Source: an uncultured Pelagibacteraceae bacterium (lineage in GTDB: Bacteria > Pseudomonadota > Alphaproteobacteria > Pelagibacterales > Pelagibacteraceae). From it: a stretch of 64,000 bases of DNA. Every line of letters begins with the position of its first letter. Positions within the stretch are counted from its first letter, which is position 1. Positions 22,850 to 27,991 of the stretch are shown here, in pieces. Location of the stretch: assembly GCA_902567785.1 (NCBI GenBank), contig CACFOR010000005.1, positions 1 to 64,000 on the forward strand. The letters are read 5' to 3'. Made by a program: the position numbers and the translations under genes. Below the pieces are notes generated by a model. It ran no database searches and was not told the DNA's origin. It worked only from the letters and a program-made list of their open reading frames with translations.

Positions 22850-23575
22850 CTATCTTCCTGGAACTACCGGAATACCTAAAAAAACTTTTACAACTTGAAC
22901 TACACCCCAATTTCTGACTCTCTCCAGCGTAAGAATTTCACCTGGTTTATTATAAATACTTTTTAACTCAATTTTTTTTTGTTTAATTTTTTTTGCTACT
23001 TCTGTTTTCATTTCATTTGGTATTTGCTCTGGATTTGAGTACAATTCTTGTAGTTTTTTTATCTCTCTTTTTTTTTGTTCAACTTTTTTTGCTAAATGCT
23101 TCCTTACATTTTTTGAAAATTTTTTACTTTTTTGTTCAATAATTTTTTGCTTTTTACCCACCTGTGAAACAGACAAATCTTCAGGCTTATAGTTGAACAT
23201 TTTTATTTGTGATTTTTTGTAAGTCTCAAAATTTATATTCAAGTATTCTTTTGCTAATAAAGATATATTTTCTGGAGAAGTAATAACATTATGGTCCAAA
23301 TTTGCTTGTTTTAAATCGAATTGAATTTTTCTTATATTGGTTTCAAGTTTATTTATTTCTTTTTGTAAATTCCGTGTTTGATTTTTTAATGCTGAAACAA
23401 ATAATAATCCACTTATCAATATTACTGTTACGAATGTATATTTTTTAAATGAAGTGGTATTATTTTTTTTAGGAACAGAGTTTGTCCATTTATCAAAATT
23501 AACTTCGTTAGTATTTTTTTCTAAATGTTTATTTGAATTTGGAAGTGAATTAATCCACTTATCATTATTTATCAT
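22850..23575 (-). CDS. ftsL: FtsL-like divisome protein with long basic C-terminal extension
   Basis: Position between rsmH and ftsI, one membrane segment (about 46-63), a following coiled coil (LKNQTRNLQKEINKLETNIR) and the stretch SPENISLLAKEYLNI match FtsL, the bitopic partner of FtsB and FtsQ. FtsL is normally about 100-120 residues; this is 241. The additional part (about 130-241) is very rich in Lys, Glu and Gln, partly coiled coil, and ends in VVQVVKVFLGIPVVPGR. The cytoplasmic tail has two copies of DKWxNSxP, at 5-12 and 28-35. The ATG overlaps rsmH by four bases. The name rests on position and layout more than on identity. Confidence 0.7.
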   Translation of the reverse strand: MINNDKWINSLPNSNKHLEKNTNEVNFDKWTNSVPKKNNTTSFKKYTFVTVILISGLLFVSALKNQTRNLQKEINKLETNIRKIQFDLKQANLDHNVITSPENISLLAKEYLNINFETYKKSQIKMFNYKPEDLSVSQVGKKQKIIEQKSKKFSKNVRKHLAKKVEQKKREIKKLQELYSNPEQIPNEMKTEVAKKIKQKKIELKSIYNKPGEILTLERVRNWGVVQVVKVFLGIPVVPGR

Positions 23576-24585
23576 AATATTCCTTCTTCTAATTTTAAAT
23601 AAGTTAAAAATTTATTTCTTAATTCATCTGGATAAAAAAAAGAATTTTCATTTCTAACTGCATATCTAAGTTTTGCTGAACGCGAACGAATATTTTTTTT
23701 TATTTCTTCATCATCTGGAATTAAAGGTTTTTTTAAAAATAATTGAAATAAATCTTTTTTATTTTCTTTAATAGGTAAATACCGTGAAGGATTTTTTTTT
23801 AAATTTGAATAATAACTAAAAAAATTTTTTACAATTTTGTCTTCTAATGAATGAAAGCTTATAACTGCTAATATTCCTCCATTTGAAAGAAGTTTTGTAG
23901 CTTCTATGAGACCTGAAATTAATTCTGTTAATTCTTTATTAACAAAAATTCTTATAGCTTGAAAAGTTTTTGTAGCAGGATTTTTTGAAAAATTTTTGCG
24001 ACTTTTTTTTGCTTCACCAATTATTGAGGCCAGTTCTTCTGAAGTTTTAATAGTTTTTTTATTTCTATATTTTACAATTTTACTAGCAATTTTTTTACCA
24101 TCTTTTTCTTCTCCCAATGTTTTTATTATTTTAGCTAAATGATCTCTATCTAAAGTATTTACAACATTAAAAGCAGAATATTCATTTATACCCATTTCCA
24201 TATTTAAAAAATCTTTAGATTTAAATGAAAAGCCCCTTTTTGTATCGCTAAGCTGAAAAGATGATAATCCTAAATCAAATATTATAGCCTTGGGATTTGT
24301 TTCTAAATCAACAAATTTATTTATCTCACTGAATTTTTTTAGGAAAAAACTAAATCTTTTTGGAAACTTTCTTTCTAATAAATTTGCGTAATCTGTTGTT
24401 AATTGATCTCTATCAAAAGCAATTACTTTGGTATTTGGAAATTTTAAAATAGCTTTGGAGTAACCTCCTCCACCAAAAGTACAATCAATATACGTGCCAC
24501 CATGTTGAGGGGATATAATGCTTAATACTTGATTGAGCATCACTGGATGATGTTCTTTTTTTTCCAGTGACATGGTGGCATTCAT
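23572..24585 (-). CDS. rsmH: 16S rRNA m4C1402 methyltransferase RsmH (MraW)
   Basis: Methylates N4 of C1402 in 16S rRNA using S-adenosylmethionine. Signature stretches are HHPVMLNQVLSII, DCTFGGGGYSKAIL (SAM binding), IFDLGLSSFQLSD, AFQAIRIFVNKEL and SFHSLEDKIVK. An in-frame ATG at 24645 would lie inside ftsZ. I prefer 24585, which begins just after the ftsZ stop with a GAGA-type ribosome site and gives 337 residues; 24573 is also possible. Normally it follows mraZ directly; here ftsZ lies between them. Confidence 0.94.
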   Translation of the reverse strand: MNATMSLEKKEHHPVMLNQVLSIISPQHGGTYIDCTFGGGGYSKAILKFPNTKVIAFDRDQLTTDYANLLERKFPKRFSFFLKKFSEINKFVDLETNPKAIIFDLGLSSFQLSDTKRGFSFKSKDFLNMEMGINEYSAFNVVNTLDRDHLAKIIKTLGEEKDGKKIASKIVKYRNKKTIKTSEELASIIGEAKKSRKNFSKNPATKTFQAIRIFVNKELTELISGLIEATKLLSNGGILAVISFHSLEDKIVKNFFSYYSNLKKNPSRYLPIKENKKDLFQLFLKKPLIPDDEEIKKNIRSRSAKLRYAVRNENSFFYPDELRNKFLTYLKLEEGIL

Positions 24586-24607
24586 AAATTTCTCTTTTAT
24601 CGTCCAT

Positions 24608-26125
24608 TTAATTTTTTTGTCTTCGTAAAAAAGCTGGTATTTCAAAGTCTTCCTCCGAATTAGATTCTTCGAACATTTCTGGCTCTTTTGTTAAAGTATT
24701 TTCTTCTATTTTTGACTCTTCAAATATTTGTGGTTCATTCTCTCTTGTATTCTCTTGCGATTCTATTTCATTAGATGCATGACTTGAAAAAAGTTCAGGA
24801 GTTTCTAATTCAATACTATCAACTTCAAAAGTTGGAAGATCTTCATCCTGAATATTTTCTGCAGGCATATCTTCTAAATTTTGCAAATAAGCAGCATTAT
24901 CTATTGAAATATTTTCCATGGACGATTCGCTCGCAACATCTTCGGCCTTTTCTTCATTTGGTTTTTGTTGAGCGGTCATATTATTCTCCTGCTCTGGTCT
25001 TTCTTGAATAATATTATTTAGATCTAGAGCTGTTGCTCCCTGAGTTGCTTGGAGTGTTGCCTGGTTTGTTGATACACTACTCGTAAAATTATCGCTATAA
25101 CCAGTATTTCTGTTATGCAATCTATGGACCATACTAACGACTGGTTTAGTTTCTGGCTCTTGTCCGTCTAGAGCTGTAGCCACAATTGAAACTCTAATTT
25201 TTCCGTTTAATCTTTCATCCTCAATTGATCCAAAAATTAATTCAGCTTCGGGATCCACTTCTGCACGAATTTTATTTACGGCTTCATCAACTTCAAACAA
25301 AGTGAGGTCTGATCCTCCTGTAATATTAACCAAAAGACCTTTCGCACCTTTTAAAGAATATTCATCAATTAAAGGATTCAATAAAGCAGCATTTGTTGCT
25401 TCTTCCGCTCTTTTTTCTCCTTCTGCCTCACCTGTTCCCATCATGGCTTTTCCCATTCCTTTCATGACAGTTTCAACATCTGCAAAGTCCAAATTAACTA
25501 AACCTGGTCTTACCATTAAATCAGTAACACTTTGAACTCCAAATTTTAAAACATCATTCGATAATCCAAACGAATGTTTTAAAGTTGTCTTTTCATTAAC
25601 AATTTTGAATAAGTTTTGATTTGGAACTACTATATTTGTATCTAGATGTTTCTTTAATTCTTCCAATCCTGTCATAGCTATTCTCATTTTTTTTGGACCT
25701 TCTAAAGAAAAAGGAAGAGTTACAACTCCAACTGTTAGAATATTTAATTCCTTCGCCGCTCTAGCAATAACATGTGAAGCACCAGTACCTGTGCCTCCTC
25801 CCATGCCTGCGGTAATAAAAACCATGTTACTACCTTTAATATAATCAACAATATCATTTAATGATTCTTCCGCAGCAGCTTGACCTATTTCATGTTTAGC
25901 TCCAGCTCCTAAACCTTTTGTTAAATTTGCTCCTAATTGAATTTTTCCTGTAGCTTTATTGTTTATTAAATCTTGTGCATCTGTATTAACGGCAACAAAT
26001 TCAACACCCTCCATTCCAGCATCTATCATTCCATTAATAGCGTTTCCTCCAGCTCCCCCGACACCTAAAACTAAAATTCTTGGCTTCAATTCTTTTAATT
26101 CTGGTCCTTTAATGCTTATTGTCAT
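24608..26125 (-). CDS. ftsZ: Cell division GTPase FtsZ, placed between mraZ and rsmH
   Basis: Tubulin-like GTPase that forms the Z ring. It has AVNTDAQDL, the tubulin signature GGGTGTG at residues 109-115, the T7 loop NLDFADV at 211-217, an acidic disordered linker (about 345-490), and the C-terminal conserved peptide EIPAFLRRQ that binds FtsA. So it is complete, not a paralog fragment. Its ATG overlaps the mraZ stop as ATGA, and a strong ribosome site (AAAGGAGGA) lies in the mraZ 3' end. In most bacteria ftsZ follows ftsA at the far end of this cluster; that place is empty here. The linker has repeated EPxxFEES units. Confidence 0.97.
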   Translation of the reverse strand: MTISIKGPELKELKPRILVLGVGGAGGNAINGMIDAGMEGVEFVAVNTDAQDLINNKATGKIQLGANLTKGLGAGAKHEIGQAAAEESLNDIVDYIKGSNMVFITAGMGGGTGTGASHVIARAAKELNILTVGVVTLPFSLEGPKKMRIAMTGLEELKKHLDTNIVVPNQNLFKIVNEKTTLKHSFGLSNDVLKFGVQSVTDLMVRPGLVNLDFADVETVMKGMGKAMMGTGEAEGEKRAEEATNAALLNPLIDEYSLKGAKGLLVNITGGSDLTLFEVDEAVNKIRAEVDPEAELIFGSIEDERLNGKIRVSIVATALDGQEPETKPVVSMVHRLHNRNTGYSDNFTSSVSTNQATLQATQGATALDLNNIIQERPEQENNMTAQQKPNEEKAEDVASESSMENISIDNAAYLQNLEDMPAENIQDEDLPTFEVDSIELETPELFSSHASNEIESQENTRENEPQIFEESKIEENTLTKEPEMFEESNSEEDFEIPAFLRRQKN

Positions 26126-26586
26126 TTTTCCTCCTTTTTAAATTGAGATTCCCATTTTAGACTTGCTCTATTCAAATTAGCCTTTTTTCTAGCTTGTACT
26201 TTGAATTTTTCAAAAAGTTTTGGTTCCCAAATCTGAAAAGTTTTTCCTTGTCCAACAAAAAGCATTATCTGTTTAATTTTTGCGTGATTTAATAATTTAT
26301 CTGGTATAGAAATTCTGCCTTCACTATCAAACTGAAGATTTACACTTTCTGATAAAACTGATGTAGCAAAAATATCTCTTTTTTCTTCGAAAGGATTTAA
26401 AGAATCTATAGAATCTGAAAGTTTTTCTATTCTATTTTGTGCACACCCTTCAATTGCAGGGTGATTAAAAGATGGATAACAAACTACCCCATTATAACCC
26501 ATGTTACTTAAATAAGATCTAAAACTGGCTGGCACGGATACCCTCCACTTTTTGTCTAGCCTGTTTTCGTAAGTAGATAAAAACAT
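26122..26586 (-). CDS. mraZ: Transcriptional regulator MraZ
   Basis: First gene of the division/cell wall cluster; MraZ is a ring-forming AbrB-fold DNA-binding protein that represses its own promoter in E. coli. Two SpoVT-AbrB halves are visible, each with the DxxxR pattern: LDKKWRVSVPASFR near the start and FDSEGRISIPDKLL in the middle. Length 154 is normal. An in-frame TAA sits three codons before the ATG, which fixes the start, yet there is no ribosome site in front of it; the good Shine-Dalgarno lies about 80 bases earlier at an out-of-frame ORF. Confidence 0.93.
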   Translation of the reverse strand: MFLSTYENRLDKKWRVSVPASFRSYLSNMGYNGVVCYPSFNHPAIEGCAQNRIEKLSDSIDSLNPFEEKRDIFATSVLSESVNLQFDSEGRISIPDKLLNHAKIKQIMLFVGQGKTFQIWEPKLFEKFKVQARKKANLNRASLKWESQFKKEEK

Positions 26587-26656
26587 GTTTTTTTAAGTCA
26601 AAGGCACCCCGAAAGAAATCAACGCATAGTTCATGATTTAGCTTTCTTAGCACCAT
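26519..26656 (-). CDS. Possible leader ORF overlapping mraZ out of frame (45 codons)
   Basis: An ATG at 26656 stands 5 bases after AGGAGG (26662-26667), the strongest ribosome site in this region. The frame runs 45 codons to a TAG at 26519, overlapping the first 68 bases of mraZ in another frame. The product would begin MVLRKLNHELCVDFF and resembles nothing I know. It could couple translation into mraZ, be an attenuating leader, or mean that the RNA folds so that this site serves mraZ. A sequencing frameshift is unlikely to explain it, because MraZ is complete from its own ATG. Confidence 0.35.
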   Translation of the reverse strand: MVLRKLNHELCVDFFRGAFDLKKHVFIYLRKQARQKVEGIRASQF

Positions 26657-26661
26657 ATCCC

Positions 26662-26667
26662 CCTCCT
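26662..26667 (-). promoter_or_regulatory. Strong Shine-Dalgarno in the mraZ leader
   Basis: AGGAGG on the minus strand, followed by GGGAT and an ATG at 26656. It is about 10 bases into the predicted transcript. It does not sit in front of the mraZ ATG at 26586, so it decides the leader ORF rather than mraZ. Confidence 0.6.
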
Positions 26668-26668
26668 T

Positions 26669-26693
26669 TGGGAATACATGGGATAATATGGGT
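26669..26693 (+). promoter_or_regulatory. MraZ operator: three TGGGN repeats with 10-bp period
   Basis: On the plus strand TGGGA, TGGGA and TGGGT begin at 26669, 26679 and 26689, each separated by exactly five bases. Three TGGGN boxes with 5-base spacers is the published MraZ recognition pattern. They lie across the -10 element and the start region of the mraZ promoter, so MraZ binding would block RNA polymerase. Here the repeats read on the strand opposite to mraZ. I infer autorepression of the whole run from mraZ onward. Confidence 0.75.
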
Positions 26694-26711
26694 TTTCAAC
26701 CTATACGTCAA
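26683..26711 (-). promoter_or_regulatory. Sigma-70 promoter of mraZ and the dcw cluster
   Basis: On the minus strand TTGACG (26711-26706) and TATTAT (26688-26683) are separated by exactly 17 bases. Transcription should start near 26676, some 90 bases before the mraZ ATG. It is the best-looking promoter in the window and is overlapped by the MraZ boxes. Confidence 0.75.
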
Positions 26712-26857: not shown

Positions 26858-26866
26858 TAATGATCT

Positions 26867-27223
26867 GCCAGACAATCTATAAGCCGGGTTCTGTCATTTA
26901 AATCGGTCATTTATCTGGGACTAAATTTGCATTTAGCCTCTAGCAACCAACCCAGATAGCTAACTAAGAACTGTTTTCGGCCAAAAGGCCATGCTATCTC
27001 TATTTGGTCTTGCTCCAAGTGGGGTTTTCCATGCGTTTTTTGTTACCAAAAAACCGGTGTGCTCTTACCACACCTTTTCACCCTTGCCTTGATCAGGCGG
27101 TCTATTTTCTGTGGCACTATCCCTGAGGTTACCCTCGCCAGATGTTATCTGGCACAGCGTTCTTATAGAGCCCGGACTTTCCTCTCTTGTTTATACACAA
27201 AAGCGACCAATCAATTGTCTGGC
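26867..27223 (-). ncRNA. rnpB: RNase P RNA (type A, bacterial)
   Basis: Catalytic RNA that removes tRNA 5' leaders. On the minus strand the 5' conserved block GAGGAAAGTCCGGGCTC, the central AGGGTGAAAAGGTGTGGTAA-like part and the 3' block GACAGAACCCGGCTTATAG are all present. The ends were set by the P1 helix, where GCCAGACAAT at the 5' end pairs perfectly with ATTGTCTGGC at the 3' end. The length of 357 bases is normal. It sits upstream of mraZ on the same strand, with its own promoter. Confidence 0.95.
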
Positions 27224-27265: not shown

Positions 27266-27991
27266 TTATAGTTTTTTTGTTAAATTTTCCGCAATAATTA
27301 AGCATTCCTTGTCAAGAACACCATTAATTAACTCTTTTCTATAATGTCTTTGGAAAGCCTTGATGGTTTTCTTTACAAAAAATGTATTTCTTGGTGAAAA
27401 ACAGTATCCTATTTTTTTTAAGTTTTTGAAAAATTTTATTTTGTCAATTTTTTTCAAAATTTTTTTCTTTCTTGAGTTTTCAAGATCTTTTCTATTGTAG
27501 TTATGCCAAATTCCTATACCTTTTTTTGATAACAGTTTCCAAGAAAATTTTTCACCTGGATCAATTTTTCTTAAAGGAGCAATATCGGAATGACCAACAA
27601 TATTTTTCTTTTTGATTTTATACTTCTTCATAAGAAAACTACAAATATTTATCAAACTAAATATTTGTTTTTTTGTGAAATTTGTATAACCAAATCTATG
27701 CCCTTTATTTACCAACTCAATACCAATTGAATTTTTGTTTAAATTTTTATAATTTCCCCAGCATGATTTTCCAGCATGCCAAGCTACCTGGGTATCTTCA
27801 ACCAACCTATATAATTTCCCTGTTTGATTAATTACAAGATGACAACTAACTTTGGATTTTGGATTGCATAATCTAATTATAGATTCTCGCCCAGATTGCA
27901 TTCCTGTATAATGGAGTACTATTACTTTTATTGATTTTAATGATCTTTTTTTTTTATCGAAATTTGGTGAATAATAATTAGTAATTTTCAT
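27266..27991 (-). CDS. ampD: N-acetylmuramoyl-L-alanine amidase, AmpD-like (Amidase_2)
   Basis: Zinc amidase that cuts the bond between MurNAc and the peptide stem, probably on recycled muropeptides. Expected zinc ligands are His27 (IVLHYTGM), a His in IVGHSDIAPLRKIDPG and the Asp of that same motif. AWHAGKSCWG and NSIGIELVN are also typical. No signal peptide is visible, which favours cytoplasmic AmpD over periplasmic AmiD. After about residue 165 comes a lysine-rich part with IKAFQRHYR, resembling a peptidoglycan-binding repeat. It is divergent from mlaA. Confidence 0.85.
   Translation of the reverse strand: MKITNYYSPNFDKKKRSLKSIKVIVLHYTGMQSGRESIIRLCNPKSKVSCHLVINQTGKLYRLVEDTQVAWHAGKSCWGNYKNLNKNSIGIELVNKGHRFGYTNFTKKQIFSLINICSFLMKKYKIKKKNIVGHSDIAPLRKIDPGEKFSWKLLSKKGIGIWHNYNRKDLENSRKKKILKKIDKIKFFKNLKKIGYCFSPRNTFFVKKTIKAFQRHYRKELINGVLDKECLIIAENLTKKL

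Follow-up and report, generated by a model that had tools for sequence, protein, structure and literature searches.

SAR11 bacteria are among the most abundant in the ocean and have kept few regulators, and throughout their order FtsZ shares one operon with MraZ, the predicted repressor of its own synthesis. The mraZ locus of an uncultured Pelagibacteraceae bacterium, which we analysed within a stretch of 64,000 nucleotides (hereafter the window; among named genomes, those of uncultured Pelagibacteraceae (SAR11) such as AG-464-G19 and AG-439-A05 lie closest), bears on the question of how SAR11 sets its FtsZ supply. A first-pass annotation had proposed an MraZ operator lying over the promoter of the division genes, and we begin with this before turning to the start of mraZ itself.

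The operon and its operator

The first gene of the operon encodes a MraZ protein (Table 1). The PF02381 profile scores 77.4 bits compared to a curated cut-off of 23 and matches two stretches (repeats), the AlphaFold model (pLDDT 82) has the MraZ fold when compared with the solved MraZ structure 1n0e (Z 16.7, rmsd 2.9 over 137 residues), and the protein carries two D-x-x-x-R loops (D11/R15 and D87/R91). The mraZ–ftsZ–rsmH order holds across the Pelagibacterales, unlike in nearly all other alphaproteobacteria: ftsZ, which had already been named as the second gene at first pass, lies directly after mraZ in 74/74 Pelagibacteraceae and 19/20 sister family loci, and mraW comes next wherever the contig extends far enough, whereas mraW rather than ftsZ follows mraZ in 54 loci of our class-level set (61 loci, from 60 other alphaproteobacteria plus Escherichia coli). 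A strong Shine–Dalgarno (SD) sequence of its own precedes ftsZ in 72/74 loci, and the ATGA overlap with mraZ is seen in many genomes. Upstream of mraZ and on the same strand are an RNase P RNA gene (26864–27222) and an Amidase_2 gene (27266–27991).

Table 1. Features of the mraZ locus (positions are those of the window).
Feature	Position	Strand	Details
-35 TTGACG	26706..26711	-	promoter of mraZ, read 26711-26706
MraZ box 1	26689..26692	+	TGGG on +, CCCA on mraZ strand
-10 TATTAT	26683..26688	-	17 nt after -35; read 26688-26683
MraZ box 2	26679..26682	+	TGGG
MraZ box 3	26669..26672	+	TGGG
uORF SD, AAAGGAGG	26662..26669	-	duplex -11.2 kcal/mol
uORF	26519..26656	-	ATG 26656, stop TAG 26521-26519; 45 codons; out of frame, overlaps mraZ start
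mraZ	26122..26586	-	154 aa; Pfam PF02381, E 8e-22
mraZ Tyr6 codon TAC	26569..26571	-	TAT would stop uORF; C-ending 74/74
mraZ Asn8 codon AAC	26563..26565	-	AAT would stop uORF; AAC 130/130, 0 tree changes
mraZ Asp11 codon GAC	26554..26556	-	GAT would stop uORF; GAC 129/130, 1 tree change
Internal SD-like GGAGG	26542..26546	-	codons 14-15, TGG AGG
mraZ Val18 codon GTG	26533..26535	-	candidate internal restart; GTG 130/130, 0 tree changes
SD GGAGG of ftsZ	26130..26134	-	inside mraZ end
ftsZ	24608..26125	-	Pfam tubulin/FtsZ, E 2e-46; ATG overlaps mraZ stop (ATGA)
rsmH (mraW), third gene	23572..24645	-	Pfam PF01795, E 9e-87

The stretch TGGGAATACATGGGATAATATGGG (+ strand, 26669–26692) contains an exact triplet of TGGG boxes in 10-bp steps, located as first annotated (26669, 26679 and 26689) on the strand opposite to mraZ, and the TTGACG-17-TATTAT promoter described with them is indeed read at 26711–26683 on the - strand. 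At least three TGGG boxes with a 10-bp period immediately before mraZ is the known MraZ pattern with which the array had been identified, and this is what we find. With one mismatch allowed, the triplet is the sole match in the 64-kb window (0.02 expected from shuffles) and the only match in the 820-kb assembly. The claim that the boxes cover both the -10 and the spacer needs to be narrowed: boxes 1 and 2 frame the -10 (the 6-nt gap between them is exactly the -10 hexamer), but only box 1, with its 4 nt, touches the spacer. The other two boxes fall beyond the -10, in the region where transcription is expected to start (about 26676).

We compared the mraZ upstream regions of 74 Pelagibacteraceae loci from 13 genera, most of which come from single-cell or metagenome assemblies; counts given here come from related, non-independent genomes, and kinship is addressed by the tree-based counts and control columns described below. 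Conservation in close relatives was the point on which the operator had been staked beforehand, and the triplet is retained with its period, orientation and place in 74/74 loci. Boxes 2 and 3 read CCCA on the mraZ strand in 74/74 loci each, with the same strand used throughout the family, and box 1 reads CCCA in 56/74 and ACCA in 18/74. Between boxes 1 and 2, 39/74 loci have TACTAT, TAATAT or TATTAT and most of the others have a different A+T-rich hexamer, and TTGAC starts 17–21 nt before box 1 in 129/131 distinct genomes (19 nt in 93). The exact triplet pattern occurs once per genome in 59/78 family genomes and is absent from the rest, with matches at mraZ positions only, and MraZ in the Pelagibacteraceae therefore looks like a one-site local regulator.

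The E. coli dcw operator likewise has three TGGG boxes with a 10-bp period before mraZ (GTGGGAAATTGTGGGGCAAAGTGGG in E. coli K-12, NC_000913.3), and MraZ is reported to bind and repress its own dcw operon in this species (Eraso et al. 2014, as cited in PMC8475190). In that operator the sense strand carries the boxes, the first of which comes after the -10, and the genes behind are mraZ–rsmH–ftsL; in the window the array is antisense to mraZ, encloses the -10 and has ftsZ as the second gene of its operon. The sense-strand arrangement downstream of the -10 is not seen at the window operator; we have treated the opposite-strand array as a variant arrangement, and orientation is not taken as a defining trait. 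Antisense triplets scoring at least 11 of 12 letters were found in 50/61 class-level loci compared to 2/1220 shuffles; the opposite-strand orientation is the rule in the Alphaproteobacteria, and the place of the array relative to the promoter varies between groups. In many other alphaproteobacteria (e.g. loci L222, L243, L249 and L262) the -35 TTGAC is inside the box array (CCCATTGACGCCCA), with four boxes spanning the -35 to the -10.

It is very improbable that the boxes bind a regulator other than MraZ, as the same 10-bp TGGG array precedes mraZ in E. coli, for which MraZ binding and repression are reported (as cited in PMC8475190), and also sits before mraZ across the Alphaproteobacteria. 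We regard 26669–26692 as a real, family-wide predicted MraZ binding site, at which MraZ would bind and repress by analogy with E. coli and Mycoplasma. As a prediction, MraZ autorepression with ftsZ in the same operon is well supported, and MraZ may gate the supply of FtsZ as the first-pass annotation proposed.

A second reading frame over the mraZ start

The first-pass annotation overlooked a conserved upstream open reading frame (uORF) overlapping the mraZ start, an invariant GTG at mraZ codon 18 (GTG18) that is accompanied by an SD-like sequence, and the lack of an SD sequence for mraZ in most genomes. This second reading frame is unreported (a literature search on SAR11 turned up no work on this locus) and is kept open in all but one genome examined. 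A start codon lying between box 3 and the mraZ ATG, 1 mod 3 from the latter and open across the mraZ start, was found in 73/74 loci (ATG in 70 of them, and 7 to 70 nt upstream of the mraZ ATG), compared to only 5 and 3 of the 74 loci with equivalent starts in frames 0 and 2, respectively. Further distinct GTDB genomes had the uORF start in 57/57 cases. In the exception, L008 (G014), the A-run preceding the mraZ ATG is longer by one A, which places the uORF start out of register and may be an assembly error or a real loss. None of 131 distinct mraZ sequences has a stop in the uORF frame from -1 to +58, and the frame ends at +59 or +65 (the +65 stop is absent in 7/131, all seven of which carry the +59 stop). 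The codon alignment and tree used below include 130 of these sequences, as one with an N was left out. Some uORF starts in genera g3, g4 and g5 lack an SD adjacent to the ATG; a TTG with GGAGG may serve as the uORF start in g4, and the uORF would be nearly leaderless in g5 and part of g3.

The overlap leaves a clear mark on mraZ codon choice. A T-ending mraZ codon followed by AA, AG or GA creates a stop in the uORF frame, and at such stop-critical two-fold sites we counted 220 C and 0 T in mraZ codons 1–19, compared to 178 C and 619 T in the later codons. Two-fold sites of this 5' region that are not stop-critical have 80 T and 5 C, and the same stop-critical test applied to ftsZ as a control gave 0 C and 17 T. 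The lone GAT at Asp11 precedes GTG and hence makes no stop, and T is kept both at F2, where no stop arises, and at F22, where the stop that ends the uORF depends on it. In a tree based on mraZ codons 25 onward, the wobble bases of N8, D11 and V18 have changed 0, 1 and 0 times, respectively, compared to 2–47 changes for nearly all other conserved columns (at least five for most). The uORF frame is under selection to stay open and to end at a fixed place, and codon 8 is frozen as AAC and codon 11 as GAC because this keeps the uORF open. The first 17 residues of MraZ are also conserved through wobble bases that vary freely, and full-length MraZ is therefore very probably made and used.

Among the valine codons only GTG can readily start translation. 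GTG accounts for 7% of other Val codons further along mraZ, whereas codon 18 is invariant (Table 1), and the uORF stop falls 5 or 11 nt behind it. Arg15 is encoded by AGG in 101/130 sequences compared to about 10% at most other Arg columns, and the internal SD-like stretch (codons 13–15) has an energy of -9.0 kcal/mol compared to -6.4 kcal/mol for the synonymous null, being below the null in 66/74 genomes (it is weak in g4, g5 and parts of g9 and g12). Median SD energies were -5.3 kcal/mol for the uORF, 0.0 for the mraZ ATG, -6.5 for GTG18 and -9.3 for ftsZ. The mraZ ATG reaches -6 kcal/mol or below in 9/74 genomes, most of which have a long spacing shared with the uORF. We note that codon 14 (26545–26547), the Gly of DxKGR, is Trp (TGG) in the window and most members of genus g1, Met in one of them and Arg in a related genus, and that TGG AGG and AGG AGG both yield GGAGG. 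We considered whether W14 represents a loss to the protein in favour of the SD sequence, but support for this is weak, as the position also varies elsewhere (Asn in M. pneumoniae; Cys, Leu, Lys, Arg or Asp in some alphaproteobacteria).

Possible roles of the overlapping frame

The conserved uORF, invariant GTG18 and SD-less mraZ suggest that the dose of MraZ is probably also set at the level of translation. On balance we favour a model with two layers of control: the promoter would be autorepressed, and a decoy uORF translated from its mRNA would limit full-length MraZ, perhaps with a restart at GTG18. The three boxes share one face of the helix, and MraZ occupying them would mask both the -10 and the start point and so repress mraZ–ftsZ–rsmH. 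A short ORF would open the mRNA immediately after the operator, crossing the mraZ start and ending 59–67 nt inside mraZ, and most ribosomes would enter this uORF and pass over the mraZ start, since the uORF (in many genera) and ftsZ have SD sequences and the mraZ ATG is mostly without one. The full-length repressor would then be made in small amounts and FtsZ freely; both the translation of the uORF and the reduction in full-length MraZ are predictions from this arrangement.

The restart at GTG18 would be the least certain step. Ribosomes finishing the uORF would produce a MraZ without its first β-hairpin and first D-x-x-x-R loop, as residue 18 lies in the predicted structure between this hairpin (strands 5–9 and 15–17, with loop D11–R15) and the helix of residues 20–28, and they would keep the mRNA covered as far as ftsZ. 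MraZ minus residues 1–17 may not fold, and the truncated product may be functionless. We suggest only tentatively that the mraZ message is dual-coded, such that the uORF carries ribosomes past the mraZ start and the restart at GTG18 allows ftsZ to be reached without making the repressor. If true, the balance of full-length and truncated MraZ would be set by two competing starts acting as a translational dial on the FtsZ supply. A dual-coded mraZ start of this type escapes gene callers, and it suggests that the repressor is also controlled at translation, under selection throughout the family.

We consider it rather unlikely that the uORF is purely inhibitory and would simply divert ribosomes from the SD-less mraZ ATG, ending too far downstream for backward re-initiation and leaving GTG18 and the SD-like stretch unused. 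Such a role would account for the missing SD at the mraZ ATG and for an overlap free of stops, and the peptide has no codon periodicity, as expected if only the act of translating matters, but it leaves unexplained the invariance of GTG18 (no change in 130 sequences), the enrichment of AGG at Arg15 and a stop fixed 5–11 nt behind GTG18.

GTG18 could also be read through the peptide, as it fixes an invariant near-terminal Ala (GCC) in the uORF, and AGG at Arg15 favours a Gly three residues earlier. Some uORF members end in GIRA or GVRA, and these ends loosely resemble known arrest peptides. That the uORF encodes a functional or ribosome-stalling peptide with this Ala as the key residue is nonetheless improbable: the upstream part varies in sequence and length (2–24 codons), differences across the 70-nt upstream part show no 3-base periodicity (969/1036/1009 at the three positions), the wobble bases that set other uORF residues vary freely (44 changes at V16 and 46 at S17), and the spacing between the Ala and the stop differs among members.

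A programmed +1 ribosomal frameshift joining the uORF to MraZ is also conceivable given that MraZ is in the +1 frame of the uORF, that the corresponding leader of the sister family is in frame as an N-terminal extension, and that the uORF end, TTT or CTT followed by TAG A, resembles the prfB slip site. We judge this to be highly unlikely, as no slippery site is conserved at the junction, the uORF can end at either of two points, the slip codon and the SD-like stretch are about 17 nt apart compared to 3 in prfB, and a fused product would have other residues in place of the conserved N-terminus of MraZ, where amino-acid constraint is strong. Finally, a conserved RNA structure or DNA site inside mraZ, with no reading frame involved, is scarcely credible as the source of the wobble constraints: the leader of L003 forms a stem with the internal SD region, but this stem is not general and minimum free energies from the leader to +75 in 74 genomes show no excess folding over shuffles (mean z +0.24), and the constraint is found only where T makes a stop in one frame, with T kept at F2 and F22.

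Related systems and origin of the frame

In E. coli, the leader ORF uof overlaps the start of the autoregulator gene fur and governs its translation. The decoy uORF that we favour resembles uof in having an upstream start, an out-of-frame overlap with the start of a (predicted) autoregulator gene and clear conservation, though it belongs to an unrelated gene and has an end coinciding with an in-gene GTG and SD-like stretch. A possible leader ORF before an alphaproteobacterial mraZ has also been described in Rhodobacter sphaeroides, where the 268-nt leader includes a terminator and the sRNA UpsM (PMC5089854). In contrast to the SAR11 uORF, this sORF is limited to R. sphaeroides and overlaps the UpsM terminator rather than the mraZ start (PMC5089854).

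Mycoplasma, like SAR11, combines a small genome and few regulators with a short MraZ operon that includes ftsZ, and repression by MraZ, which we predict here, has been reported there: mraW and ftsZ rise in M. genitalium when mraZ is deleted (PMC8475190). It differs in having a box array of AAAGTG repeats (PMC8475190) and the gene order mraZ–mraW–MG_223–ftsZ, and no overlapping uORF is described there. Mycoplasma MraZ is also represented by the cryo-EM complexes 9r4j and 9sz7.

The open frame appears to be particular to the Pelagibacteraceae. In the sister family it closes at +20 to +29 in 20/20 loci, with V18 mostly encoded by GTT or GTA, and it is closed by +32 in 24/25 AT-rich alphaproteobacteria. 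Sister family MraZ proteins instead have an in-frame N-terminal extension after the operator (LIILITNFFYKMA and similar) with a TTG or ATG start behind GAGG. The comparable stretch in the Pelagibacteraceae is shifted by one relative to the mraZ frame, and mraZ itself begins at a new ATG; a small indel in the ancestor of the family could account for this change of frame. The sister family extension (L296–L315) is conserved and hydrophobic, and lies right behind an operator of four to five boxes. Many members of this family also have TAGACA as the -35 instead of TTGAC.
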